Of a DNA stretch of 64,000 bases, positions 2,144-19,390 are shown piece by piece. A model generated the notes under the pieces. That model saw only the letters and a program-made list of their open reading frames with translations, was not told where the DNA came from and made no database searches. The first letter of the stretch is position 1. Every line of letters begins with the position of its first letter. The translations under genes and the position numbers were made by a program. The DNA is from Mesorhizobium sp. J8. GTDB lineage: Bacteria; Pseudomonadota; Alphaproteobacteria; Rhizobiales; Rhizobiaceae. The stretch is taken from assembly GCF_016591715.1 (NCBI RefSeq), contig NZ_AP024109.1, positions 2,728,001 through 2,792,000 on the forward strand. The letters are read 5' to 3'.

Positions 2144-2443
2144 ATGAAAATGCACTTCACCTCCGCCGCCGCCGGCTTGCTGCTTCTTGCCGGCATTGGC
2201 GCGGCTGCCGCGCAGGATGTCGTCATCGCGCCGGAGCAGGAAACGGTTATCAAGGAATACGTGCATAAGCAGCCACTGGCTTCGGTCGAGGTCCCCGGCG
2301 TCAAGCTCAGCGTCGGCAGCACGCTTCCCGACACGGTCGAACTGCACGAGGTTCCCAATGTGAAATACCGGTATGTTGTCGTCGACAACCAGACGGTTAT
2401 CGTCGATCCCGGTACACGCAAGATCGTCAAGGTGCTCGATTAA
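2144..2443 (+). CDS. Small exported DUF1236 protein
   Basis: A 99-residue protein with a signal peptide (residues 1-24, ending AAAQ) and a single DUF1236 domain. Conserved elements include IKEYVHKQP, VGSTLPDTVELHEVP and the terminal VIVDPGTRKIVKVL. RBS AGGAGAG lies 7-9 bases upstream of the ATG. It is divergent from the repeat-bearing DUF1236 gene and closely related to the broken copy at 3607. Function is unknown; the export signal and stress promoter suggest an envelope role under stress (inference). Confidence 0.9.
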   Translation: MKMHFTSAAAGLLLLAGIGAAAAQDVVIAPEQETVIKEYVHKQPLASVEVPGVKLSVGSTLPDTVELHEVPNVKYRYVVVDNQTVIVDPGTRKIVKVLD

Positions 2444-2465
2444 TCGATAACGCGCCGAATCGGAT

Positions 2466-2512
2466 GGCTCGTCGCCGGTTCTGGCGGCGGGCCATTAACC
2501 GATTATTATTTT
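2466..2512 (+). terminator. Probable terminator after the DUF1236 gene
   Basis: An 11-bp stem with two G-U pairs (2466-2476 with 2483-2493, loop GGTTCT) lies about 25 bp after the stop. The T-rich stretch ATTATTATTTTG follows after a short gap, so it is a moderate candidate. Confidence 0.45.
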
Positions 2513-2528
2513 GTTACCATGTGCTAAC

Positions 2529-2553
2529 GGAACCTTCCCGTTGCGCCTGAGTT
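2529..2553 (+). promoter_or_regulatory. EcfG/RpoE2-type promoter for the small gene at 2662
   Basis: GGAAC at 2529-2533, 17-base spacer, GTT at 2551-2553, about 108 bp upstream of the chosen start. Confidence 0.55.
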
Positions 2554-2661
2554 AGCGGCTCTGGGTCCACGCTGTCTCATAGACAACACAAATCAATGGC
2601 AGCGTGAGGATTCGGGCGGTGGCGAACGGATATGGGCGGGTCGAGGAGGAGTTTGACGAAC

Positions 2662-2883
2662 ATGTCGAAACGAGAAGTCGGAACATCCCGTTCCCTCGGG
2701 ATGCGCGTCGCCGATCTCAAAGCCAGGATGCGGGACGCCCGGATTACCGAGCATGAGATGAAGGCCTTTCAGAAAGTCGCGGCCATTATGGGAGGTGGCG
2801 AGGGCTCCCTACGCATTGAGGCGGATGATCTAATCGCCGCGTCCTTCGTCACCGAGGCGCCGGGCGAATCGACGCCGACCTGA
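2662..2883 (+). CDS. Small hypothetical protein under a stress-type promoter
   Basis: A 73-residue hydrophilic protein starting MSKREVGTSR, with no signal peptide or membrane segment. Charged helical stretches occupy residues about 14-45 (RVADLKARMRDARITEHEMK). The start at 2662 is preferred over the upstream ATG at 2632 because GAGGAGGAG lies about 10 bases before it. I do not recognise a family. The general-stress promoter candidate upstream suggests a stress-induced accessory protein. Confidence 0.55.
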   Translation: MSKREVGTSRSLGMRVADLKARMRDARITEHEMKAFQKVAAIMGGGEGSLRIEADDLIAASFVTEAPGESTPT

Positions 2884-3042
2884 CAGCGGCCATCAGCACC
2901 GAAATCCAACTCAGGGGCGCGCGACCGCCACCCGGCGAGGCGGCGGTCCGCAGGCGTATGGTTTGTGGTGTCACACAACCGACGACGTTTCACTCATTCG
3001 ATGGTCTCAAGAACGTCTTGGCCCGCCTCGTCTGGCGAAGGT

Positions 3043-3393
3043 CTATCCAGGCACGTGTCGGTTCTGCGCCCGGCTTTCGCGCGCCCGGCTGCGCCGGATC
3101 TTTGCTTCGCGTAGCATCACGACCGGATCGGCGCCGGTCCACTCGATCCCCGCCTTCTTCGCAAAGATGAGGAATGCCTGCCGCGCTTTGTCGAGATCGA
3201 TCTCTCCGCCCCGCGCCGCCTCGCAGGCGCGCAAGGCCATCACATAGCTCTCGTCGCGCTCTGCCGGCGGCCACTCCTTGAGAAAATTCTGCATCGCCGT
3301 CAGCGAAGTGATCTGGCGCTTGAAACCGGCGCCGACGGCGATCGCCACCGGGGTTCGAAGTTCGATGTCGCTTCTGATGGAACCTTTTTGCAT
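3043..3393 (-). CDS. DUF982 family protein
   Basis: A 116-residue protein matching the rhizobial DUF982 pattern. It has an N-terminal TPVAIAVGAGFKRQITSLTAM segment, a central WPPAERDESYVMALRACEAA block and a C-terminal ARQAFLIFAKKAGI helix. DUF982 proteins are small, often multicopy in Mesorhizobium and Rhizobium, and have no established function. The frame continues upstream to a TTG at 3435 that has GGAAGG before it, so a 130-residue version is possible. The C-terminal tail is Arg-rich. Confidence 0.75.
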   Translation of the reverse strand: MQKGSIRSDIELRTPVAIAVGAGFKRQITSLTAMQNFLKEWPPAERDESYVMALRACEAARGGEIDLDKARQAFLIFAKKAGIEWTGADPVVMLREAKIRRSRARESRAQNRHVPG

Positions 3394-3493
3394 GCACCGC
3401 CGCCCTATGGATTTCAAAGTATTGGGAAGTTTCAATGCCTTCCAATGCTCGGCCGATGCAAAGGTTCCGCCAAATCAATTAGTCGCCGCTGAC

Positions 3494-3518
3494 GGAACAA
3501 CACCTTGCCGAGGGCGTT
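3494..3518 (+). promoter_or_regulatory. EcfG/RpoE2-type promoter for the broken DUF1236 gene
   Basis: GGAAC at 3494-3498, 17-base spacer, GTT at 3516-3518, about 90 bp upstream of the ATG at 3607. The promoter is retained although the reading frame is broken. Confidence 0.6.
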
Positions 3519-3606
3519 TGCCCCGGGAGCTCCAACGTTCGACCTGCCGGTGTTTCCGCTCTCGCGGAGGCAGGGTGGAGTTCGCTAACGCAACAGGAGA
3601 GAAACG

Positions 3607-3905
3607 ATGAAAACCACCCTCATTCCAGCTGTCGCCGGCGTGGCACTGATGGCCGGTATCGGCATAGCGGCCGCGGACGAGGTGATCGTCACCCCGAGCA
3701 GCAGACCGTGGTCAAGGAGTATGTCCACAAGCACCCGATCGCCTCGGTCAACGTGCTTGGTCTTGAGCTCGGCGTCGGCTCGACCGTGCCGGACACGGTC
3801 GAACTGCAGGAGGTTCCGGACGTGAAGTACCGGTATGCGGTCGTCAACGACCACACGGTGCTGATCGATCCCGGCACGCGCCGCGTTGTTCAGGTGATCC
3901 AGTAA
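3607..3905 (+). pseudogene. DUF1236 gene broken by a one-base deletion
   Basis: The first 30 codons from ATG 3607 (RBS AGGAGAG) encode a signal peptide ending IGIAAADEVIVTP, paralogous to the gene at 2144. The frame then shifts by -1 at about 3696. The rest of the DUF1236 domain (EQQTVVKEYVHKHPIASVNV to VDPGTRRVVQVIQ type ending) continues in another frame to TAA at 3905. Comparison with the paralogue shows CCGGAGCAG expected and CCGAGCAG present, so one G is missing. Everything else, including promoter, RBS and terminator, is intact. It is either a very recent pseudogene or a sequencing error. Confidence 0.75.
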
Positions 3906-3917
3906 TACCTGACCCTC

Positions 3918-3955
3918 AAGAGCCCGATCCTCGCACTGAAGGATCGGGCTCTTCT
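3918..3955 (+). terminator. Strong Rho-independent terminator after the DUF1236 pseudogene
   Basis: A perfect 14-bp stem pairs AAGAGCCCGATCCT (3918-3931) with AGGATCGGGCTCTT (3940-3953), with an 8-base loop, just after the stop at 3905. The stem ends in paired A/T bases that serve either strand. Confidence 0.8.
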
Positions 3956-4023
3956 CGCATCCGGGCTTACCGCATAGAATGGGTAGCGGTTTGGGAGGCA
4001 ACGAAGCGGAAGGAGTCGTTGCC

Positions 4024-4233
4024 ATGCATCATCCACACGTCGAATCGCCTGACATCGCACGCCAAGTCGACAAGCTGCTGGCCGAGCATAGGACCGGCCT
4101 GCTGTCGATGCGGGAGGCCATTTCCCTGCTGCGCCAACGCACGGGAACCGACCGCTCTGACGCGGATTTGGCCGGACTGATTACAAAGAAGGCAGCGCAT
4201 CTGGGTGTCGCGGTGGTCGTCGACGGACGCTGA
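4024..4233 (+). CDS. Small hypothetical protein, unrecognised
   Basis: A 69-residue soluble protein starting MHHPHVESPD, with a helical middle (ARQVDKLLAEHRTGLLSMRE) and a hydrophobic C-terminal strand (GVAVVVDG). Start 4024 was chosen for AAGGAG 8 bases upstream; the frame is open to an ATG at 3979. No family was recognised. The coding frame is supported by codon bias (G/C at third positions) and a good RBS. Confidence 0.55.
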   Translation: MHHPHVESPDIARQVDKLLAEHRTGLLSMREAISLLRQRTGTDRSDADLAGLITKKAAHLGVAVVVDGR

Positions 4234-4342
4234 GCGAAATTGCCTTCAAACTCGCTCGCCTCCATGTGTGATAGCGAAGACGCCGCGCGAAAATTCGGCT
4301 AATATTCGCGCCGGGGAACCGTCCCAACATCAGGAGGCGACA

Positions 4343-4573
4343 GTGACGGACGACAGGCACGAACGCATTCGCCAGCGGGCGCACGAGATTTGGGAGCAGG
4401 CCGGCCGGCCTGAAGGCGCGCATCTCGAGCACTGGGACCGGGCGACCGCCGAGATCGATGCGGCGGGCAAGACGAAGGCGAAGGGTCCGACGAAGGCCTC
4501 CGCCAAGGTCGAGAAGGCCAAAGCCAAGGCTCCCGTCAAGGCAAAGGCGCCCAAACCGAAGGCCAAGGCCTGA
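4343..4573 (+). CDS. DUF2934 protein with a Lys/Ala/Pro-rich tail
   Basis: A 76-residue protein starting at GTG 4343, five bases after AGGAGG. Residues about 4-37 match DUF2934 (ERIRQRAHEIWEQAGRPEG, then HWDRATAEI), a short helix-turn-helix-like motif common in rhizobia. The remaining 40 residues are Lys/Ala/Pro repeats (KAKAPVKAKAPKPKAKA) resembling histone H1 tails, so nucleic acid binding is possible (inference). Function of DUF2934 is unknown. Confidence 0.75.
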   Translation: MTDDRHERIRQRAHEIWEQAGRPEGAHLEHWDRATAEIDAAGKTKAKGPTKASAKVEKAKAKAPVKAKAPKPKAKA

Positions 4574-4715
4574 TCTCCGGCGGCCGCGCCGCCGCGAAGC
4601 CTCATTCGATCCGCGGAAGGTGAAGGGCGGTTGTGTCGCGCCCTTCCATTCCTGACAGTCGATTTGCGGCGACCTGTATCGGCAGCGCGGGGCTGCGGTT
4701 CAGCTGGTAGGGAGG

Positions 4716-4925
4716 CTATCGCCTCCCTTGCTTTCCGGCGTATCGCGCGACTGCGCACAGGAAAGCCAGCGCGGCCGTGTCGCAGGCGGCCCGCGATGGC
4801 GACGGACCCTTGGCGAAAAGGACCGCGTCCGCGACGGGGATGGTCAGGCCGTGCTTCCGGGCGAATGAGGTGACTTCGTAGGGTTGATCGTCGGGCTGTG
4901 CGCCGATGTCGATGTGCTGGTCCAT
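4716..4925 (-). CDS. Small protein, paralogue of the gene at 24938 (DUF3606-like)
   Basis: A 69-residue protein starting MDQHIDIG with GGGAGGAA upstream. Its core (QPYEVTSFARKHGL, then SRAACDTAALAFLCAVARY) aligns without gaps to the protein at 24938-25132 (QPYEPAFFASKYGL, then GRRACDAAAITYLRYVALR). The pattern of Y/F-A-x-K-x-G-L followed by a second helix resembles the small DUF3606 domain, but that assignment is tentative. The frame is open upstream to 5084 without a start signal as good as the one chosen. Confidence 0.6.
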   Translation of the reverse strand: MDQHIDIGAQPDDQPYEVTSFARKHGLTIPVADAVLFAKGPSPSRAACDTAALAFLCAVARYAGKQGRR

Positions 4926-5080
4926 CAAAACGAATTCCTCCCTGGTGTGCGGCTTTACCCTCCTTCGCCCGAGAGGAATTAACCACCGGCCGTTCTTGCG
5001 CGTCCACCAATTGGCAATTGTGTGAAACGATGCATTTTTCGGTGGGTGGCCTGAAGGGTTGTAGCGGTGCGATTGGCTGG

Positions 5081-5425
5081 TCACCAGGCCTCGCTCGATC
5101 GGGCAAACCTTACCCCCGCCGCGATCATCGCGCTTTCACATTCGCTGATCAGCCTCAGATTGCGCGAATACCGCGCCACCGTCTCCGGCAGCCAGGCCGC
5201 GCAAGCTTCGACATAGGCGCGGCCATGCACCAGCGTGCCGGTCGAAAGCCGCTCGTCCTTCTCGGCGATCACTTTCAGATATTGCCGGATGAAGCGGATG
5301 TCGTCGGCGATGTCCTGGCTAGCCATGCGCCAGGCGCCGGCGAGACGCTCGCGCTCGGCGAGCGGCAGTGGCGACAGCAAGGGGCGGGAGAGGTCGGCGA
5401 AAGCGGCATGGTTTGCGGTGTCCAA
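5081..5425 (-). CDS. Hypothetical protein in the S24 repressor module
   Basis: A 114-residue soluble, mainly helical protein with a likely TTG start at 5425 (GAGGGG upstream). Middle and C-terminal helices (ADDIRFIRQYLKVIAEKDE and NLRLISECESAMI) suggest a coiled or bundle fold. I do not recognise a family. Two operator-like repeats (5453-5467, 5488-5502) lie directly upstream, so it is probably controlled by the neighbouring repressor. It lies immediately downstream of that gene on the same strand but has its own control region. Confidence 0.6.
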   Translation of the reverse strand: MDTANHAAFADLSRPLLSPLPLAERERLAGAWRMASQDIADDIRFIRQYLKVIAEKDERLSTGTLVHGRAYVEACAAWLPETVARYSRNLRLISECESAMIAAGVRFARSSEAW

Positions 5426-5452
5426 GCAAGTCCCCTCAAAAGAAGGGAGTAT

Positions 5453-5502
5453 CGTACTTTATGTACGAAAAGCAATCAAGCACGATTCGTACAATTTGAA
5501 CG
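5453..5502 (-). promoter_or_regulatory. Two operator sites (CGTAC-N5-GTACG) upstream of the gene at 5081-5425
   Basis: Site 1 at 5453-5467 is a perfect inverted repeat CGTAC-TTTAT-GTACG. Site 2 at 5488-5502 is CGTAC-AATTT-GAACG with one mismatch. Identical arms and spacing occur at 6219-6267 beside the repressor start. Centre-to-centre distance is 35 bp. This is most simply read as a binding region for the repressor encoded at 5563-6195. Confidence 0.65.
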
Positions 5503-5562
5503 ATGGCGGTTGCAGGCACAAATTGCGGTGCCGCGCAGGTTTCCTCATGGAGGGAGGCTGGC

Positions 5563-6195
5563 TCACATATCGATCATCGACCGCTTTACCCGCCCGATGA
5601 TGGTGATCGCCCCCTCCAGCTCCGGCGGTGGAATGTCGAGATAGGAGGCCGGCTGGAATGGCGGGTTGTCGTTCGGGCGATAGCGCTTGTAGGTGGCGCG
5701 TCCGGTTTCGTCGGCGATCACGTAGCAGCCATTAGTCACCAGCCGCTTGTCGCGCAAATTGACGAAGATGATCGAATCCGGCGGGGAGATCTTGTTCATC
5801 GACGGACCGTCGACGCGGAGCGCGATCCATTCGCCTTCCTCGAGGTCGGCGGCGGGGATGGTCGGATAGTCGGAGAGGTTGACGACGCTGTCCTGGCTGC
5901 CGAGCTCGCCGGCGCTGATCCAGGACACGATCGGCACGTCGACGGTGACGGGCGAGGAGACGAGGCTGACCGGCGCCGCCTCCGCGCCGTCGGCATTGAA
6001 CAAGAGCCAGCCGGGGTCGACGCCGAACAGCCGGCCGTATTTCTCGGCAGCTTTCCGCGACAATGGCCTGTTGCCGTTCTCGTGGCTGATCAGCGTGTTC
6101 TTGTTGATGTCGCGCAAGGCGCGGGCCGCATCGCTGGGCGAGGCATAGCCGGCCTGGGCGCGCGCCTGCTGCAATCTGTGCCGGGAATCCATCAT
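5563..6195 (-). CDS. Phage-type repressor: XRE helix-turn-helix plus S24 peptidase-like domain
   Basis: A 210-residue protein starting MMDSRHRLQQ. Residues about 5-65 form an XRE-type helix-turn-helix (LQQARAQAGYASPSDAARAL, then NTLISHENGNRPLSRKAAEKYGRLF). Residues about 95-205 match the LexA/CI S24 fold, with VDVPIVSWISAGE near the cleavage-loop position and VDGPSMNKISPPDSIIFVN, where the GPSM serine is the expected catalytic residue. A lysine partner may be in RATYKRYRP. Operators at 6219-6267 and an extra CGTAC half-site at 6196 overlap its promoter and start, so it should repress itself and the divergent operon. SOS-type self-cleavage is possible. The frame is open far upstream but those codons run through the operators. 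Confidence 0.85.
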   Translation of the reverse strand: MMDSRHRLQQARAQAGYASPSDAARALRDINKNTLISHENGNRPLSRKAAEKYGRLFGVDPGWLLFNADGAEAAPVSLVSSPVTVDVPIVSWISAGELGSQDSVVNLSDYPTIPAADLEEGEWIALRVDGPSMNKISPPDSIIFVNLRDKRLVTNGCYVIADETGRATYKRYRPNDNPPFQPASYLDIPPPELEGAITIIGRVKRSMIDM

Positions 6196-6218
6196 CGTAC
6201 AAAATGCCTGAAAATAAT

Positions 6219-6267
6219 CGTCCAAAGTGTACGATTTCGCTTGCGCGTATTTCGTACATAACGTACG
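6219..6267. promoter_or_regulatory. Two operator sites between the repressor and the divergent operon
   Basis: Site 3 at 6219-6233 is CGTCC-AAAGT-GTACG (one mismatch). Site 4 at 6253-6267 is a perfect CGTAC-ATAAC-GTACG. Centre-to-centre distance is 34 bp, nearly the same as for the pair at 5453-5502. They occupy the 80-bp gap between the repressor start (6195) and the first divergent start (6276). Confidence 0.65.
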
Positions 6268-6275
6268 CTTAGCGC

Positions 6276-6401
6276 ATGAATGAGCATCCCGCAAGCATTT
6301 CCGCACTGCCCGTGATTCCGGCGCCCATGAGCCTCCCGGGGCTTGTCGATTCCCGGCGGAGCATCGGCGCCTTAGCCGCCGAGCAAGGGGAGGCGGCATG
6401 A
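6276..6401 (+). CDS. Possible 41-residue leader peptide of the GcrA-like operon
   Basis: ATG 6276 lies 8 bp after operator site 4 and opens a 41-codon frame (MNEHPASISA to EQGEAA). Its TGA overlaps the ATG of the next gene as ATGA at 6398-6401, the classic arrangement for translational coupling. No RBS is visible at 6276, so it could be leaderless if transcription starts near 6270. No similarity was recognised. It may be real or only the untranslated start of the operon. Confidence 0.4.
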   Translation: MNEHPASISALPVIPAPMSLPGLVDSRRSIGALAAEQGEAA

Positions 6402-6733
6402 ACGACGCGCCCCTGTCTTTGCAATTCGAACGGTCTTCCCTGTTCGAATCGCCTGTCGAATTCCAATCGCCCGGACCATCCTCCTCCCCGGTCCGGGCGC
6501 GTTCCGGGGCATTTGCCCCGGGTCCGGTCGAACCGCCCGCACCCCGGTTCACCGGAAAGGCCGGAGCCGCTCCTCCCCCGGCTCCGGCCCCCAATCCGGG
6601 CACAAGCTGCATCCGCACCGAGGACGGCACCGTCATCCTGTTCGACAGGGTGACCGGCCGTGCGGTGTCCGGGCTCACCCGCACCGCCGCCGAGGCCGCG
6701 CTCCTTCGCTTGAGCGCTCCAGGCGGCGACTGA
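6398..6733 (+). CDS. Pro-rich hypothetical protein, second gene of the repressor-controlled operon
   Basis: A 111-residue protein starting at ATG 6398 behind GGGGAGG. Residues 1-70 are disordered and Pro/Ala/Ser-rich. Residues about 72-105 form a compact end (GTSCIRTEDGTVILFDRVTG, then TRTAAEAALLRL). No known domain is recognised. Tight coupling to the upstream mini-gene and the shared operator region place it in the same phage-like operon as the GcrA-like gene. Confidence 0.6.
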   Translation: MNDAPLSLQFERSSLFESPVEFQSPGPSSSPVRARSGAFAPGPVEPPAPRFTGKAGAAPPPAPAPNPGTSCIRTEDGTVILFDRVTGRAVSGLTRTAAEAALLRLSAPGGD

Positions 6734-6831
6734 CCTTCAACGCCTTCGCCGACCTGACCATCAAACGGCCTGACGGCCGAACCCTGGCGCTTGGCCTGAA
6801 ACCCGGCGCTTCGCAATCAATGGAATGAGAC

Positions 6832-7632
6832 ATGGCCGCTGCCTACACCGAAAAGGAAATCGGCGAGATCGCCGCCTTGCTGAAAGAGGGGCTTTCGGCT
6901 TCGCGCATCGCCGGCCGCTTCAGCGCGCTGCGCGGCGCTCCGGTCTCGCGCAGCGCCATCATCGGCATCGTCCACCGCAATGCCGGCTTAAGCGCCATTG
7001 GCTTCGCCAATCCCAAAGGCGGCCGCGCCGGCGGCAGACCGAGGAAGCACGCGCGGCACGATCGTCCTGGCCGGCGGGGCAGCGCGATAGCTGGAGGGAT
7101 GACGCTTTCGGAGCCGGCGGCGCTTTCCAGATATGTCGAATTGGTGGAAGGCGCCAGCACGGAGGCTGCCAATCTCCCTTCTTGCGGGGGAGATGCCCGG
7201 GAGGGCAGAGGCCGGCCCGCTGGCGCCGCGGTCCATGGCGTTCCCTTTGAGCCGGGCGATGTCACCGCCGGCGCCCTCCTCAAGGCCAAAAAGCCCAAAA
7301 CCCGCAAAACCGCCCGCACGCTTCCGCCCGCCTGGCTCGCCCCAAGCGCCCACCAAAAATCCGAAGCGCATCTTTACAAACTCCCGGCGCCGCCTCCGGC
7401 GAAAAACCCCGGCCGCCAGCCGCATGTGGCGGCGATGCGCTTCCTCGACTGCCTGTTCGGCCGCTGCCGCGCGCCGCTTGATCTGGCGTTGCGCGAGGAT
7501 GCCGAAGCCGATCCCGTCGGCGTGCGCCCGGGACCGAACATGCTCTGCTGCGGCCTTCCGACGTCGGCCACCCGCTCCTACTGTGCGCATCACCATGCAA
7601 GGTTCCACGGCCAGCGTGGGAGAGGGGGGTGA
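6832..7632 (+). CDS. GcrA family cell-cycle regulator-like protein with an inserted palindromic element
   Basis: A 266-residue protein. Residues 4-57 match the GcrA N-terminal helix-turn-helix (YTEKEIGEIAALLKEGLSAS, then SRSAIIGIVHRNAGL). The C-terminal region (about 201-258) carries the GcrA-type cysteine/histidine end, with CLFGRCRAPL, MLCCGLP and YCAHHHARFHG. GcrA proteins bind methylated GANTC sites and sigma-70; phage and accessory copies are common in alphaproteobacteria (family knowledge). It is longer than the usual roughly 170 residues: the middle is a Lys/Pro/Ala-rich linker, and residues 107-132 are encoded by a genomic palindromic repeat (7150-7227). Being behind the S24 operators, it is probably repressor-controlled. 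Confidence 0.75.
   Translation: MAAAYTEKEIGEIAALLKEGLSASRIAGRFSALRGAPVSRSAIIGIVHRNAGLSAIGFANPKGGRAGGRPRKHARHDRPGRRGSAIAGGMTLSEPAALSRYVELVEGASTEAANLPSCGGDAREGRGRPAGAAVHGVPFEPGDVTAGALLKAKKPKTRKTARTLPPAWLAPSAHQKSEAHLYKLPAPPPAKNPGRQPHVAAMRFLDCLFGRCRAPLDLALREDAEADPVGVRPGPNMLCCGLPTSATRSYCAHHHARFHGQRGRGG
7150..7227 (+). repeat. Palindromic intergenic-type element inserted in frame within the GcrA-like gene
   Basis: The 78-bp block is bounded by perfect 9-bp arms GGCGCCAGC (7150-7158) and GCTGGCGCC (7219-7227). Inside is the same core (GCTGCCAATCTCCC, CGGGGGAGATGCCCGG, GGGCAGAGG) found between genes at 34354, 35344 and elsewhere in this window. It is exactly 26 codons and codon-aligned, and adds residues 107-132. 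Confidence 0.7.
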
Positions 7633-7635
7633 GAG

Positions 7636-7795
7636 GCGTCTCGGCAAGATCAAGGTTCCTCGCCTCATGAAGTGGGAGAGGGCTCGGCGAAGCCCGAGAC
7701 GGAGAGGGGAGCGCCCTGCGAAGGCCCCCGCTCCGTCCGCTTCGCGGACACCGTTTTTGGCCGGGCGAGGAACCCAGTTCTGACACGTCTCCCCA
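7636..7795. repeat. Intergenic dispersed repeat of a second type between GcrA-like and DUF6456 genes
   Basis: The gap holds GC-rich stem-forming sequence with GGTTCCTCGCC near its start and GGCGAGGAACC near its end, forming long-range arms. In between are GCTCGGCGAAGCCCGAG and CCGTCCGCTTCGCGGAC hairpins. Similar wording (CGAAGCGACGGAGAGGGG) occurs at about 42800. It looks like a rhizobial intergenic mosaic repeat; no gene is seen. Confidence 0.45.
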
Positions 7796-7812
7796 ACCCT
7801 AAGGACCGCACC

Positions 7813-8409
7813 ATGCCCCGGAAATCCGCCAAGAAACCGCAGCCGCCAAAGCTCCCCAAGGGCGAGGCAGAGCAGGTGCGCATCCGCCGCGAAATCGGCC
7901 ATGATTTTGCGCTGAAGGAGGACCGCTTCGGTCGCCAGCGGCTGACCCCCGGCACGGCCGAGGCGCGACGCGTCTACGAAGTGTCGAATGGCGGCTACAC
8001 TTCCACCGGTGGCGTCGTGCGCCTGCGCAATGTCGATCCGCTCACCGGCATCACCTCGCTGACGCGCCAGCAGCGCGAGGCCGGCCAGCGCTTTCGCGAC
8101 GATTTCGAGCGCGCCGCCCGCCACGGCCTGCAGCCGCAATCCTGGAGCGAGCGCGTTGACGCCAGCCGCGTGGGCGGCGGCGTCCCCGACCGCGTCCTCT
8201 CAGCCGGCCGCGCCCACGCCCACGCCGCAGCCGCGCTCGCGCATTGGGAGGTGGCGGAGGTGGTGCGCAAAACCTGCCTCGAAGGCCAGTCGGTGAAGGC
8301 CATCGCGGAACGCAGCGCCGAGGGGAGGGATGTGGTGGTGAAGCTGCTGAAGGTCGGGCTCGATTTGCTGGCGGTGCACTATGGGATGATGGGGAGGAAG
8401 GTGGGGTGA
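7813..8409 (+). CDS. DUF6456 domain protein, putative helix-turn-helix regulator
   Basis: A 198-residue protein starting MPRKSAKKPQ (AAGGA 7 bases upstream; the longer frame from 7672 reads through a repeat). Residues about 85-195 match DUF6456: LTRQQREAGQRFRDDFERA, the WSERVDASRVGGG segment, then helices EVAEVVRKTCLEG and VKLLKVGLDLLAVHYG. This domain is common in phage-derived regulatory regions and core regulators of Rhizobiales. Its place after the GcrA-like gene supports a shared phage-like regulatory operon. Confidence 0.7.
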   Translation: MPRKSAKKPQPPKLPKGEAEQVRIRREIGHDFALKEDRFGRQRLTPGTAEARRVYEVSNGGYTSTGGVVRLRNVDPLTGITSLTRQQREAGQRFRDDFERAARHGLQPQSWSERVDASRVGGGVPDRVLSAGRAHAHAAAALAHWEVAEVVRKTCLEGQSVKAIAERSAEGRDVVVKLLKVGLDLLAVHYGMMGRKVG

Positions 8410-8682
8410 GGAGTGCCCTCGCTGTTAAGCGCTGCGATGGCTATAGACGACCTGCACAAGCAGGGATTCATTTAGAATAGAAGCAACAGAATATTATGGG
8501 CGCTGGTGTCGTCGGATGGGTTATGCTTGATCTATCGGGGCATGAGTCCAAAGTGCCCGTCGACGTCAATACACCGCCAGATATGTTCCTTGGTTGCTTC
8601 TCAAGGTTCTGTCTCTGCCTGAAGGTTATTCGCGGCCATGATCACCCACCTGTCAAGCTAACGGCCATTCCTGAGGAATTCA

Positions 8683-8913
8683 ATGAATTACCCCGATGGA
8701 ATCCTTGCTCGACTCGGCGACCAAATCTTCGTCTGGGAAGGAAATGAAGGCGTCGTGGTCTGCTCCATGGATACCGACGAATATTCCGAGGAGTATCCCA
8801 AGGAAGCCTTCGGCTATCTGGAACGCGGGATCATGGTCCTGTCCGAAAAGGCGGGGCTGATTCACTATGTGGAACCTGAAGCCAGCATGCGGCTGCTCGA
8901 GAGGAGGAGATGA
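8683..8913 (+). CDS. Immunity-protein-like small acidic protein
   Basis: A 76-residue acidic protein starting MNYPDGILAR with TGAGGA upstream. The pattern of G-D-x-I, EGVVVCSMDTDEYSEEYP, FGYLERGIMV and GLIHYVEPEA resembles small single-domain proteins found as orphan immunity proteins next to polymorphic toxins (recalled similarity, not verified). It lies 6 bp before the Sel1 gene, so the two form an operon. Base composition here and upstream (8410-8680) is less GC-rich than the surroundings, suggesting transfer. No toxin gene is present. Confidence 0.6.
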   Translation: MNYPDGILARLGDQIFVWEGNEGVVVCSMDTDEYSEEYPKEAFGYLERGIMVLSEKAGLIHYVEPEASMRLLERRR

Positions 8914-8919
8914 AGGTCC

Positions 8920-9381
8920 ATGACCAGGCTGATTGCTCGGCTCCTGATAAGCCTGGTCGTAGTGGCGGCAATCGGCGCGGGCTTGCTGCTGCTGCGAAAT
9001 AGTCGGATGGATAGCGGCGTGCAAGCGCTGAAGCGGGAAGACGGCACCGCTGCATTGGAGAGCCTGAAACCGCTGGCGCAACTCGGGGATAGAACTGCCC
9101 AGATGCTCGTGGGGTCAATCTACGCCTACGGATGGGGCGGAGTTCGCAAGAATGATACTGACGCGATTTACTGGTTCCGTCGCCTTGGCTCGGCGGGCCC
9201 GCTGGTTGCCGAGGAGGGCGCCGATCCCGCAGCGCCTTACCAGCTTATGGTGGCAAAGGCCTATGCCGCCGGTGCGGACGGGGTGAGGGCCGATGCCGGC
9301 GAAAGTTCGAAGTGGCTGAAACTGGCCGCGGAAGCTGGAAGCAAGGAGGCGGCCGTATCGCTCTCCCAATCTCAGCATTGA
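8920..9381 (+). CDS. Membrane-anchored Sel1-repeat protein
   Basis: A 153-residue protein. Residues about 5-27 form one membrane helix (ARLLISLVVVAAIGAGLLLL) that may be a signal anchor. The rest has Sel1-type helical repeats: ALESLKPLAQLGDRTAQMLV, GSIYAYGWGGVRKNDTDAIYW and WLKLAAEAGSKEAAV. Sel1 repeats are protein-protein scaffolds and recur in immunity or toxin-neighbourhood proteins. It starts 6 bp after the upstream gene behind GAAGGT. It is probably periplasmic and membrane-tethered. Confidence 0.7.
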   Translation: MTRLIARLLISLVVVAAIGAGLLLLRNSRMDSGVQALKREDGTAALESLKPLAQLGDRTAQMLVGSIYAYGWGGVRKNDTDAIYWFRRLGSAGPLVAEEGADPAAPYQLMVAKAYAAGADGVRADAGESSKWLKLAAEAGSKEAAVSLSQSQH

Positions 9382-10659
9382 TCAACGAAATCCCTTTGCG
9401 CCGTCTCGCTCGTCTGCTTCGTTTCTCTGAGGCTTCCCCTCCCACCCAAACACGCTCCTGCCCCCCAGCAGATGCGACTGGTCCATCTCGCCGGCGACGA
9501 TCTCCTTCAGGCTCGGCCCCGTGACATACCTCTCCATCCGGCGTGACTCCCCGTCCAGCCGCCTCAGCGCCTCCAGTTCCTCGTTCCGTCCGAGCTTCGC
9601 CTTCCCCACCGCCGATTTCAGCACCGAGATTGTCTCGTCATAGACTTTCAGCGGCACGGGGAAGGGGTGGCGGTCCTTGCCGCCATGGGCTAGCGAGAAG
9701 CGGGCCGGGTCGGAGAAGCGGTAGGGCGCGCCGTGCACCACTTCCGAGACCATGGCTAGAGCACGCACCGTGCGCGGGCCGACGCCGGGGACCAGGAGCA
9801 GTTCGGGGAAATCCTTCGGCCCGCTTTCGATCGCGGACGCGATATTGCCGTGCAGGCGGCGCATGACGATGTCGCTCTCGCGCACGTCGTGATGCGCCGG
9901 CATGACGAGGTTGGGTAAGAACGGCTGCGCGGCGGGCTCCGGCTCAGGCTGCGGCTCCAGCACGGCAAGCTCGCTCAGGATCTTTTCCGGGCTCATTGTC
10001 TTGAGCAACTCAATCTGGCTTCCACGCGCCTTTTCGGCGCGACGGTCGGTGAGGTTGACGATCTCGCCTTGCGTCTCGCCCTCGATCGCCGCATGCGGCT
10101 GATCGACGAAGCTTTTGAGCCCCCCCGACAGCCAGTGATAGCGGCGCGCCTGGCGGGCGTCGCCGTTCATGCCCTGCTGCACCACCACCCAGCGCCCGTC
10201 ATCGGCGACGATGAAGCCGTGCAGGTAGAGGTCGTAGCCGTCCTGCACGGCGGCGCTGTCCACCTTGGCCACCAGCCGGCTGGCGGTGGCGAGAGCCTCG
10301 CCGTCCAGGCCGACGCGGTCGCCGATCGCCAGCAGCTCGCCCGGCGTCTTGCGCGAATGCGCGCCGCGCCCGCCGCAGACATGGATGCCGAGCTCGCTGG
10401 CCATTGGGTTCAGCCCGCGCTTCAGCGCACCGATGACGGAAGTGGTGATGCCGGAGGAATGCCAGTCCATGCCCATTACGGCGCCAAAGGACTGGAACCA
10501 GAAGGGATGCGCAAGCCGCCGCAGAAGCTCGTCGCGGCCGTAATGGTGGATGATCGCTTCGCACAGCACCGCGCCGAGCTTCGTCATGCGCTCGCCCAGC
10601 CATTTCGGGACCCGCCCGCCATGCAGCGGCAGGTCGGCGCTGCCGCTTCGCTGCGTCAA
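9382..10659 (-). CDS. DUF763 family protein
   Basis: A protein of about 425 residues beginning LTQRSGSADLPLHGGRVP, the hallmark N-terminus of DUF763. Further conserved blocks are FGAVMGMDWHSSGITTSVIG, SRKTPGEL and a helix-hairpin-helix-like LLVPGVGPRTVRALAMVSEV near residue 310, which suggests nucleic acid contact. DUF763 occurs in archaea and bacteria without an assigned function. The TTG at 10659 has GGAG six bases upstream and matches the family start; the frame also reaches a TTG at 10713. It ends against the convergent Sel1 gene with no gap. Confidence 0.8.
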   Translation of the reverse strand: MTQRSGSADLPLHGGRVPKWLGERMTKLGAVLCEAIIHHYGRDELLRRLAHPFWFQSFGAVMGMDWHSSGITTSVIGALKRGLNPMASELGIHVCGGRGAHSRKTPGELLAIGDRVGLDGEALATASRLVAKVDSAAVQDGYDLYLHGFIVADDGRWVVVQQGMNGDARQARRYHWLSGGLKSFVDQPHAAIEGETQGEIVNLTDRRAEKARGSQIELLKTMSPEKILSELAVLEPQPEPEPAAQPFLPNLVMPAHHDVRESDIVMRRLHGNIASAIESGPKDFPELLLVPGVGPRTVRALAMVSEVVHGAPYRFSDPARFSLAHGGKDRHPFPVPLKVYDETISVLKSAVGKAKLGRNEELEALRRLDGESRRMERYVTGPSLKEIVAGEMDQSHLLGGRSVFGWEGKPQRNEADERDGAKGFR

Positions 10660-17688: not shown

Positions 17689-17941
17689 GACAGCTCCCCT
17701 GTATTCGTCCCGAATGCATTCATCCCGAAGCGACCCTAGCGCCGGTCGCCAGGCCGCAAAGACGACGCGCGTGGAACTCGGTGGAATTCTTTGGATTTCC
17801 TGCGACATTAGGGAGTGGAAATAAGCCTGGCGGGCAATGCAGACTGTTTGCCGGCGTGCTGAATGAGATCGTGGTCAATTCGTCTATCCCCGCCAGATGC
17901 CGAAATGGGCTGGCGGCGAACGACGTTCAGGGGCTTGTGGC

Positions 17942-18877
17942 ATGGCGCAGCATATCGCGCAAAAATTGAGGCTGACTTCGGCCGTGCTGGGTGCGGTGAC
18001 CCGCAAGGATCTTGCGGCGGCGTTCCGCGCCGTCAATCCCAGAACGGCATTCGATCTCGGCCGCGCCGACAAATGGCTGCAGGGGCGGGCTCATCCGCGC
18101 GAGCTCAGCGTCTATGAGGATTGGGCAAAGCTGCTGCAACTGGAGCAGCCCGGCGCGTGGATCGCCGAAAGCGATCTGCCGAGCTTCACCGCCGCCGTCT
18201 GCGCCCGTCACGGCATGGACCGCGGCGCGCTCGAACGGCTCGCCGCGCAACAGTTCGAGGCAGCCTCCGCGCATGACGACCGCGCCCAGAGCATCGCGCT
18301 GATCGGAAGCTATGCCTGCTATTCGCGCGCCTGGTCGCCCTACTATCGCGGTCAGCTTATCAAGGGCAGCCTGTCGATCGAAGGGGGGCCGGGTGTGCAC
18401 GGTCTCACCGCCCATTACCGCGAGGCCTTGCCAACCGGCCAGCTCGTCCTGGGTGGCCCCGTGACGCCCGCGAAGCGCGGCTTGTACATCCATGTCAGGG
18501 AGGTCGGCGGCGATGCCCAGTTCTTCTTCAGCCTGTTCCCCCAGTCACAACCGGGCAGCGTGCTCGGCGGCTATATGTGCGGTACAGCCATCATCGGCCC
18601 GGAGGCGCAGCCCTCATTTACCAGGATCCTCATGGTGCGCCTGCGCGATCCGGTGCCCGGTGCCGCCGCATGGGGAGGATATCTGCTTGCGCAGGGATCG
18701 ATCGCCGCCGACCTTGCGGCGCTCGGCATAGCTATCGAGCATCCGGAGGCTGTCGACGGGCTGGTCGGCCGGTTCCTGGGAGCCGACGGCGTGGGCGACA
18801 TCGGCCAGATCCCGCCGGCCGAGTTCCGCGCCATCCTTGACGTGTTCGACCGCCACTGGCTGCGGCAGGCTGGCTAA
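17942..18877 (+). CDS. Hypothetical protein, possibly regulatory
   Basis: A 311-residue soluble protein starting MAQHIAQKLR. The N-terminal 70 residues (LGAVTRKDLAAAFRAVNPRT, DLGRADKWLQGRAHPRELSV, YEDWAKLLQL) look like a divergent XRE-type helix-turn-helix. The remaining 220 residues, with strands such as GLYIHVREVGGDAQFFFSLF, may be a ligand-binding domain. I do not recognise a named family. It stands alone, 180 bp before the two RiPP-like peptides. Confidence 0.6.
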   Translation: MAQHIAQKLRLTSAVLGAVTRKDLAAAFRAVNPRTAFDLGRADKWLQGRAHPRELSVYEDWAKLLQLEQPGAWIAESDLPSFTAAVCARHGMDRGALERLAAQQFEAASAHDDRAQSIALIGSYACYSRAWSPYYRGQLIKGSLSIEGGPGVHGLTAHYREALPTGQLVLGGPVTPAKRGLYIHVREVGGDAQFFFSLFPQSQPGSVLGGYMCGTAIIGPEAQPSFTRILMVRLRDPVPGAAAWGGYLLAQGSIAADLAALGIAIEHPEAVDGLVGRFLGADGVGDIGQIPPAEFRAILDVFDRHWLRQAG

Positions 18878-19053
18878 CCGGGGAACTGTCGCAAGCTGTC
18901 GGAGAACGGCATCGGATGTTGCCGGCCAGCTCCAGCCCGTACGCTTTCGGTTGCAGTCGACCCCTCAGCGCGCGTCGATCACGCAAATGTTCTTTGACGG
19001 GAACCCGTTCGCGCCCCGTGTTGCGGGCGTGAAATTGGGCTAAGGGATTATCC

Positions 19054-19146
19054 GTGAAGAAGACTTACGAGAAGCCGGTGCTGTCGAAACGCGACAAGCT
19101 GTCGAGCGTCGTCGCTGGCGCCCTCACTTCAAACATCAAGCCTTAA
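19054..19146 (+). CDS. Putative RiPP precursor peptide 1 (30 residues, YxxP leader)
   Basis: GTG 19054 with AAGGGA 6 bases upstream opens a 30-codon frame to TAA 19144-19146. The peptide has an N-terminal VKKTYEKPVLSKRDKLSS and a short C-terminal part AGALTSNIKP. It shares xKKxYxKPxLxxRDKLS with a second peptide of identical length at 19298. The Y-x-x-P-x-L pattern is the recognition signature of lasso-type leader peptides (family knowledge), so the last 10-12 residues would be the core. No modification enzymes lie in this window. It is too short for routine gene callers. Confidence 0.6.
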   Translation: MKKTYEKPVLSKRDKLSSVVAGALTSNIKP

Positions 19147-19297
19147 CATCGGCTTACATAAACCGGCTGGTGCGCTCATCGGCTCGCCCGGTTGTTCGGC
19201 GGCAGTTGGCGGGGGCCAGATTTGGCTCCGCTTGACGCGGCGGATGCGGGGCATAGTTGCTGTCCCGGTCTCATCGTCGACCGGGTCGAGGCAGCCG

Positions 19298-19390
19298 ATG
19301 AAGAAGCCATATTGCAAACCGACGCTAGCCAGACGTGACAAGCTTTCGGCGACGACCGCAGCCACGCCGGCCTCCGGCTTCACGTTCTGA
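19298..19390 (+). CDS. Putative RiPP precursor peptide 2 (30 residues, YxxP leader)
   Basis: ATG 19298 (GAGG 6 bases upstream) to TGA 19388-19390. The leader MKKPYCKPTLARRDKLSA matches peptide 1 at KK, Y, KP, L, RDKLS, while the C-terminal part (ATPASGFTF) is unrelated to that of peptide 1. Conserved leader plus variable end at equal length is what duplicated precursor genes look like. The 151 bp between the two genes hold no other gene. Alternative reading: a small conserved protein family with no modification. Confidence 0.6.
   Translation: MKKPYCKPTLARRDKLSATTAATPASGFTF

Follow-up and report, generated by a model that had tools for sequence, protein, structure and literature searches.

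Two short open reading frames in the window, the whole 64,000-nucleotide stretch of the Mesorhizobium sp. J8 chromosome analysed here, are genuine genes that encode peptides of 30 residues each. The peptides are probably RiPP precursors that are matured in trans, by a lasso-derived cassette lacking a cyclase, into short linear peptides phosphorylated on Ser or Thr. In the sampled relatives the family is hardly ever seen apart from a single small group of modifying enzymes, and this suggests a little-known route to short, probably phosphorylated, peptides. RiPP precursors had already been proposed in the initial annotation. The family, its leader/core pattern, the core Ser/Thr and the co-occurrence and linkage with the cassette are now shown by computation, and the chemistry is what we infer. 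The features of the pair are as follows.

18994..18999, plus strand: -35-like hexamer TTGACG, 60 nt upstream of precursor 1; a good -10 match is absent
19054-19146, plus strand: precursor 1, whole; GTG start; peptide VKKTYEKPVLSKRDKLSSVVAGALTSNIKP
19054..19116, plus strand: leader part of precursor 1, VKKTYEKPVLSKRDKLSSVVA, with Y-x-K-P-x-L ... V(-2) A(-1); drawn from column conservation
19117..19146, plus strand: core of precursor 1, GALTSNIKP, and stop; predicted boundary; candidate modified residue Ser5 or Thr4
19232..19237, plus strand: -35-like hexamer TTGACG, 66 nt upstream of precursor 2
19298-19390, plus strand: precursor 2, whole; ATG start; peptide MKKPYCKPTLARRDKLSATTAATPASGFTF
19298..19360, plus strand: leader part of precursor 2, MKKPYCKPTLARRDKLSATTA, with T(-2) A(-1); drawn from column conservation
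19361..19390, plus strand: core of precursor 2, ATPASGFTF, and stop; predicted boundary; candidate modified residue Ser5, or Thr2, Thr8

The initial annotation described two 30-residue frames with a common leader, and coordinates, lengths and leader are all as it gave them. It also held that the tails have nothing in common. This does not stand, as Ala21 and Ser26 (core position 5) occur in both peptides and both positions are conserved family-wide. Neither peptide scored over the cut-off of any NCBIfam, Pfam or PADLOC model. Peptide 1 gave weak matches below cut-off to lasso_cyano (13 bits) and DUF5972 (16.1 bits), and peptide 2 gave none.

The window locus was also compared in other species. 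Cores of the ..SGF[TS]F kind, like that of precursor 2, were seen in 15 fetched loci, mostly with the same neighbours; these loci were picked for that core and some genomes were fetched twice, so the core similarity is no independent count. While cores of the peptide 2 type recur beside the same neighbours, the core and number of the peptide 1 type vary, which suggests that some cores are maintained and others turn over. A 326-residue protein without a Pfam match is encoded immediately upstream of the pair (window 17897-18877), and a homologue of it is found in 12 of the 15 loci.

The J8 chromosome, a single contig of 6.69 Mb in which the window spans G000:C1:2728001-2792000, carries seven intact, dispersed copies, of which the window pair makes up two:

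2.747 Mb: two intact copies, the window pair
2.804, 3.224, 3.528, 3.870 and 5.910 Mb: one intact copy each
2.817 Mb (G000:C1:2817447; L014, 1501-1665): eighth copy, degenerate, with a 33-residue tail

With peptide 1 as query against its own genome, the second window copy was found at E 0.0169, and five others, outside the window, scored between E 2.2e-5 and 0.023. A profile built from the seven copies recovered all of them at 1.8e-15 or better, as expected of its own training set, and the degenerate copy at 1.4e-8; no other match in the 6.69 Mb was better than 0.016. Among 61 sampled genomes of the genus, at E 0.01, 44 hold 4 to 14 matches (median 8, the degenerate copy counted) and 17 hold none. 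The family is thus all-or-none across these genomes. Four plasmid records matched a self-made query; the best place is annotated as a 'putative RiPP precursor' in one and is unannotated in the other three, in a gene table that covers the plasmids incompletely.

A pattern search over 152 loci yielded 255 hits, nested starts and false ones included, from which the leader pattern gave 175 distinct peptides. These bear out the conserved leader and variable tail expected in the initial annotation, as well as its lasso-type leader signature, which takes the form Y-x-K-P-x-L. The consensus is KKxYEKPxLxKRxKLSxVTA, with a near-invariant YxKPxL...T/V-A. In 170 aligned leaders Y5, P8 and L16 are invariant and L10 is nearly so. 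Position -1 is Ala in 171 of the 175, and position -2 is Thr in 106, Val in 57 and Ala in 9, so that the lasso-type leader feature, YxxPxL together with a Thr-type residue at -2, is present.

The cores are 5 to 17 residues long, mostly 7 to 12, and are highly variable apart from a hydroxyl residue. For their statistics the degenerate J8 copy with its 33-residue tail was removed, leaving 174. Ser is present in 171 of these and Ser or Thr in every one (174/174). By comparison, in 5000 shuffles the number of cores lacking Ser averaged 40.2 and never fell below 25, and the number lacking both Ser and Thr averaged 20.3 and never fell below 8. When the set was thinned to 58 cores less than 50% alike, two lacked Ser, against a shuffle mean of 12.5 (minimum 4). 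Absence of Pro, Gly, Val, Thr, Ile and Asn stays near the shuffle level. Ala is missing from 48 cores against 61.8 in shuffles, a far weaker effect than that for Ser. The cores were extracted by the leader alone, although tails had contributed some score to the searches that supplied the loci. The three cores without Ser belong to one Aquibium locus (L063) and all hold Thr. Outside the first set, Ser or Thr is found in 55 of 55 hand-picked precursors and Ser in 46 of them; this selection left out a plausible frame (L275 at 7161), a doubtful one (L280 at 11425) and clear false hits.

The frames behave as genes. In 167 family genes the synonymous codons at conserved residues differ among copies, with four at P8, six at L10 and four at A21, and conserved residues with varied codons indicate that the peptide is under selection. 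TTGAC occurs within 130 nt upstream of 111 of the 167, with 109 sites between -75 and -46, and a purine-rich string like a Shine-Dalgarno sequence precedes 138. By these signals, together with the several codons at invariant residues, most copies resemble genes that stand on their own.

The initial annotation supposed that the enzymes act in trans. In agreement with this, no maturation genes were seen beside the peptides, and the likely enzymes lie on the same chromosome 2.1 Mb from the window pair, at about 643 kb (G000:C1). The cassette is composed of four genes, given here by position in locus L146:

7232-7516: PqqD-type RRE, in an overlapping gene set
7513-7947: lasso-type B2 protease, in the same overlapping set
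7944-8924: HprK/PEPCK-like kinase, in the same overlapping set
8946-9971: NTP_transf_5, on the strand opposite to the other three genes

The RRE and B2 proteins scored 40.7 bits with PF05402 and 66.8 bits with NF033537 (cut-offs 23.4 and 33), and they are assigned to the peptides by co-occurrence and linkage. All four genes are present at 44 of 44 cassette loci of the genus, with 64-100% identity. The RRE protein for which the initial annotation advised a search is therefore found at each of the 44. That annotation had also named what would speak against it, and the opposite was found in each case: homologues with a common leader and differing tails exist, conservation does not extend over the whole peptide, and an RRE enzyme is at hand.

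PF13471 (the lasso B2 protease) was detected in 49 of the 61 genus genomes and falls into two score groups. Members of the group with the lower scores (42-50 bits) were detected in each of the 44 peptide-bearing genomes and in none of the 17 peptide-free ones, and a recount by script agrees. Fisher's test on this association gives p 1.9e-15, uncorrected for relatedness; since the sequences are related, such p-values are not independent. A one-gene maximum-likelihood tree was made from a flanking gene, named here propionyl-CoA-synthetase-like, for 30 of the 61 genomes, namely the 17 without peptides and 13 selected from those with them. On this tree the presence label requires at least 4 changes (4-5 in bootstraps), two of which are forced by well-supported branches. 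The association thus does not come from one single split, though the events are few.

The same coupling was seen beyond the genus. A family scan (297 genomes, 109 genera) found the peptides in 19 genomes, the kinase in 20 and both in 18; counted by genus the figures were 9/10 versus 9/10. The exceptions are G207, with the peptide only (a weak match with an in-frame stop), and G282 and G301, with the kinase only; in G301 precursor-like frames adjoin the kinase. An order scan (297 genomes, 122 genera, partly the same as the family set) found the peptides in 9, the kinase in 13 and both in 9. Three of its four kinase-only genomes have precursor-like frames and one (G508) has none. Fifteen family cassettes outside the genus contain PqqD in 15, the kinase in 15, B2 in 14, the NTP gene in 14 and a cyclase in 0. 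Ten of these 15 stretches contain precursor-like frames (L242, for one, has nine), and in G333 a profile match that the pattern had overlooked falls inside the cassette stretch. Seven cassettes from other families have the four genes in all and a cyclase in none; precursor-like frames accompany four of them (L277, L278, L280 and L281), three in genomes counted as kinase-only. In Mesorhizobium a precursor is near the cassette in 16 of 44 loci, one of them marginal. Linkage elsewhere and dispersal in Mesorhizobium are expected if the peptides are substrates of the cassette.

These data also bear on whether the copies might be repeats in decay or of a selfish kind, with a leader-coding element dispersed that yields no active product. 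Dispersal, variable copy number and the one degenerate J8 copy (L014) would suit such an element. However, the reading frame, the leader residues and the core Ser are retained with varied codons, none of the 17 cassette-less genus genomes keeps a copy at E 0.01, and across the 44 genomes with a cassette its genes retain 64-100% identity. We regard this explanation as scarcely credible.

The products would also differ from lasso peptides, whose leader signature the initial annotation had recognised. J8 does have a complete lasso cluster (L147, G000:C1:612000-622000, at about 2267-7908), 26 kb from the cassette without a cyclase. It includes an RRE, a higher-scoring B2, a cyclase (783.8 bits against an NCBIfam cut-off of 525), an HprK-like protein, NTP_transf_5 and a frame like an ABC transporter. 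A lasso cyclase was found at E 1e-80 in 48 of the 61 genus genomes, two of the 48 scoring below the family cut-off. The cyclase of this separate cluster, 2.1 Mb from the window pair, might then cyclise the peptides in trans. The leader is of lasso type with T/V at -2, a complete cluster is in the same genome, and 43 of the 44 peptide-bearing genomes have the cyclase, so trans action is possible there. On the other hand, a ring acceptor, Asp or Glu at core position 7, 8 or 9, is found in just 18 of 175 peptides, and most cores have only 7-12 residues. No lasso cyclase was detected in any of 66 cassettes when the stretches fetched around each were searched with the J8 enzyme. The lasso cluster also has a frame that we read as its own ordinary precursor, with a core beginning GGAGTTALDASF... 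that would offer Gly1 and Asp9. As a control, B2 and cyclase of the lasso cluster were counted in 43/44 peptide-bearing but also in 5/17 peptide-free genomes, and G039 holds the cassette and six peptides with no cyclase match at E 1e-80. The separate lasso cluster tracks the peptides less well than the cassette does. Cyclisation in trans is thus very unlikely, and the peptides are not filed as lasso peptides because both ring acceptor and cyclase were looked for and the results spoke against each.

The kinase was examined by motif and fold. H135, G157, K158, D175 and D176 are invariant in 32 sequences and match the motif of BsfK as described in PMC10368454. The structure model (pLDDT 93.0) has a PEPCK-type fold, and all 50 matches listed in a fold search are PEPCK. 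With Pfam PF07475 (HPr kinase) the protein scores 22 bits, below the cut-off of 33.3, and the HPr-kinase domain appears at E 0.01 in 5 of 10 relatives, each time below cut-off. Motif and fold together suggest the kinase class, with a score below the Pfam cut-off. An earlier model from a shallow alignment (A2) was poor (pLDDT 56.8) and was discarded; when A2 was searched against PDB sequences the matches were only weak, led by a subunit of replication factor C (0.026) and including HPr kinase 1ko7 at 0.13. The kinase homologue lists hold the best 120 matches, nearly all from Mesorhizobium, and are uninformative on breadth. In the B2 protein Cys74 and His111 are invariant in 18 sequences.

Known systems provide precedents for the individual steps. 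It was reported that LppK phosphorylates Ser3 in the core of a linear RiPP and that LppS cleaves the unphosphorylated precursor poorly (PMC13381572). BsfK is described as phosphorylating core Ser3 with the help of RRE/B1 and as accepting Thr (PMC10368454), and PsmN, a nucleotidyltransferase homologue, has been linked to hexosylation of phospho-Ser (PMC9266682). We infer each chemical step, and likewise where cleavage falls, whether the peptides are exported and what they do; the likeliest path combines the BsfK, LppK/LppS and PsmN precedents. The window frames would be free-standing precursor genes, each with its own start and, in most relatives, a -35-like box. The cassette RRE, encoded 2.1 Mb off, would bind the leader motif YxKPxL. 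The HprK/PEPCK-like kinase, helped by the RRE, would then phosphorylate Ser (or Thr) of the short core, after which the RRE-guided B2 Cys protease would cut behind T/V(-2)-A(-1). The NTP_transf_5 protein may optionally put a sugar or nucleotide on the phosphate. As the cyclase is absent, the product would stay linear, at about 5-17 residues, and would be GALTSNIKP and ATPASGFTF in the present pair. A single cassette would serve all dispersed precursors.

In a simpler path the RRE and B2 would do no more than set free short peptides for signalling, and the kinase and NTP protein would act elsewhere or only license cleavage. The leader and cleavage residues are indeed the most constant part, and separately promoted, multi-copy precursors with variable short cores would suit a set of signals. 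Yet Ser or Thr is kept in 174 of 174 cores that are otherwise free, the kinase is present in 66 of 66 cassettes (having served as search bait for 22 of them), and poor cutting of unphosphorylated precursor is what was described for LppS (PMC13381572). Release by cleavage alone is accordingly unlikely, less so than cyclisation in trans, and phosphorylation before cleavage is preferred.

The closest known kind is the linear polyphosphorylated peptides (LPPs), which their description states to be confined to Bacillota (Popov et al. 2026, PMC13381572). According to that description, LPP clusters likewise have no cyclase and have a discrete RRE, an HprK-like kinase and an NTP transferase; the precursors have a YxxP leader, a variable C-terminus and a core Ser near the N-end, and a lasso cluster is often in the same genome. 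The differences are several (PMC13381572). The leader peptidase of LPPs is an archaeal-type signal peptidase, whereas here a B2, its probable counterpart, is present in all 44 cassettes of the genus. The conserved LPP set includes a transporter. LPP precursors have 35-200 residues, with one to three per cluster, while the cores here have 5-17. The present hosts are Alphaproteobacteria, with 4-14 mostly dispersed copies in Mesorhizobium. Of the LPP leader consensus YxxPxVLxHQxIxFETxxS, only YxxPx(L) agrees. The peptides are not filed as LPPs because of the different leader consensus and the B2 protein that apparently stands in for the signal peptidase.

The phosphorylated lasso peptides of the Bsf type share B1, B2, kinase and nucleotidyltransferase, the RRE-aided kinase, core Ser3 phosphorylation with Thr accepted, and in some cases Ile/Val at leader -2. 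The Bsf cluster is described as also holding a cyclase, an ABC transporter and the precursor, and it makes a lasso (PMC10368454). Paeninodin and pseudomycoidin have an HprK-like kinase, the latter also a nucleotidyltransferase homologue; their phosphate is reported to be on the C-terminal Ser of a lasso made by a cyclase (PMC9266682), whereas 4 of 174 cores here end in Ser. A literature search, outside of which most subscription journals lay, found no publication on these Mesorhizobium peptides or on a B2 cassette lacking a cyclase.

In a wider reading, for and against which the chances seem evenly balanced, Mesorhizobium and scattered relatives have a phosphopeptide factory of one cassette and many substrates. 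Here a lasso-derived maturase without cyclase would act on dispersed, fast-changing, independently promoted precursors to give strain-specific short linear Ser/Thr-phosphorylated peptides, perhaps decorated further, and would represent a RiPP class of Proteobacteria with an origin separate from that of the Bacillota LPPs. If this is so, a gene family that has drawn little notice in a widely studied rhizobial genus can be tied to its maturation enzymes and to a kind of product open to testing, linear phosphorylated RiPPs reach beyond Bacillota into Alphaproteobacteria, where another leader peptidase is used, and one maturase serves a dispersed set of up to about 14 precursors. The small size of the predicted products would allow them to be followed directly by mass spectrometry, so that the role of such peptides can be tested by removing one gene.

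Among ten neighbour proteins at five cassette loci, no exporter was recognised. Two of the ten are AMP-binding enzymes that adjoin the NTP gene. Such an enzyme, of 475 residues, adjoins NTP_transf_5 in two genera (L238 4148-5572; L249 9359-10783), and it is possibly a further modifying enzyme. A formyltransferase-like gene is found in some cassette loci (L148 9499-10305), with matches in 5 of 44 genus loci, one by 20 residues only, and again in L239, L250, L251, L278, L279 and L282.
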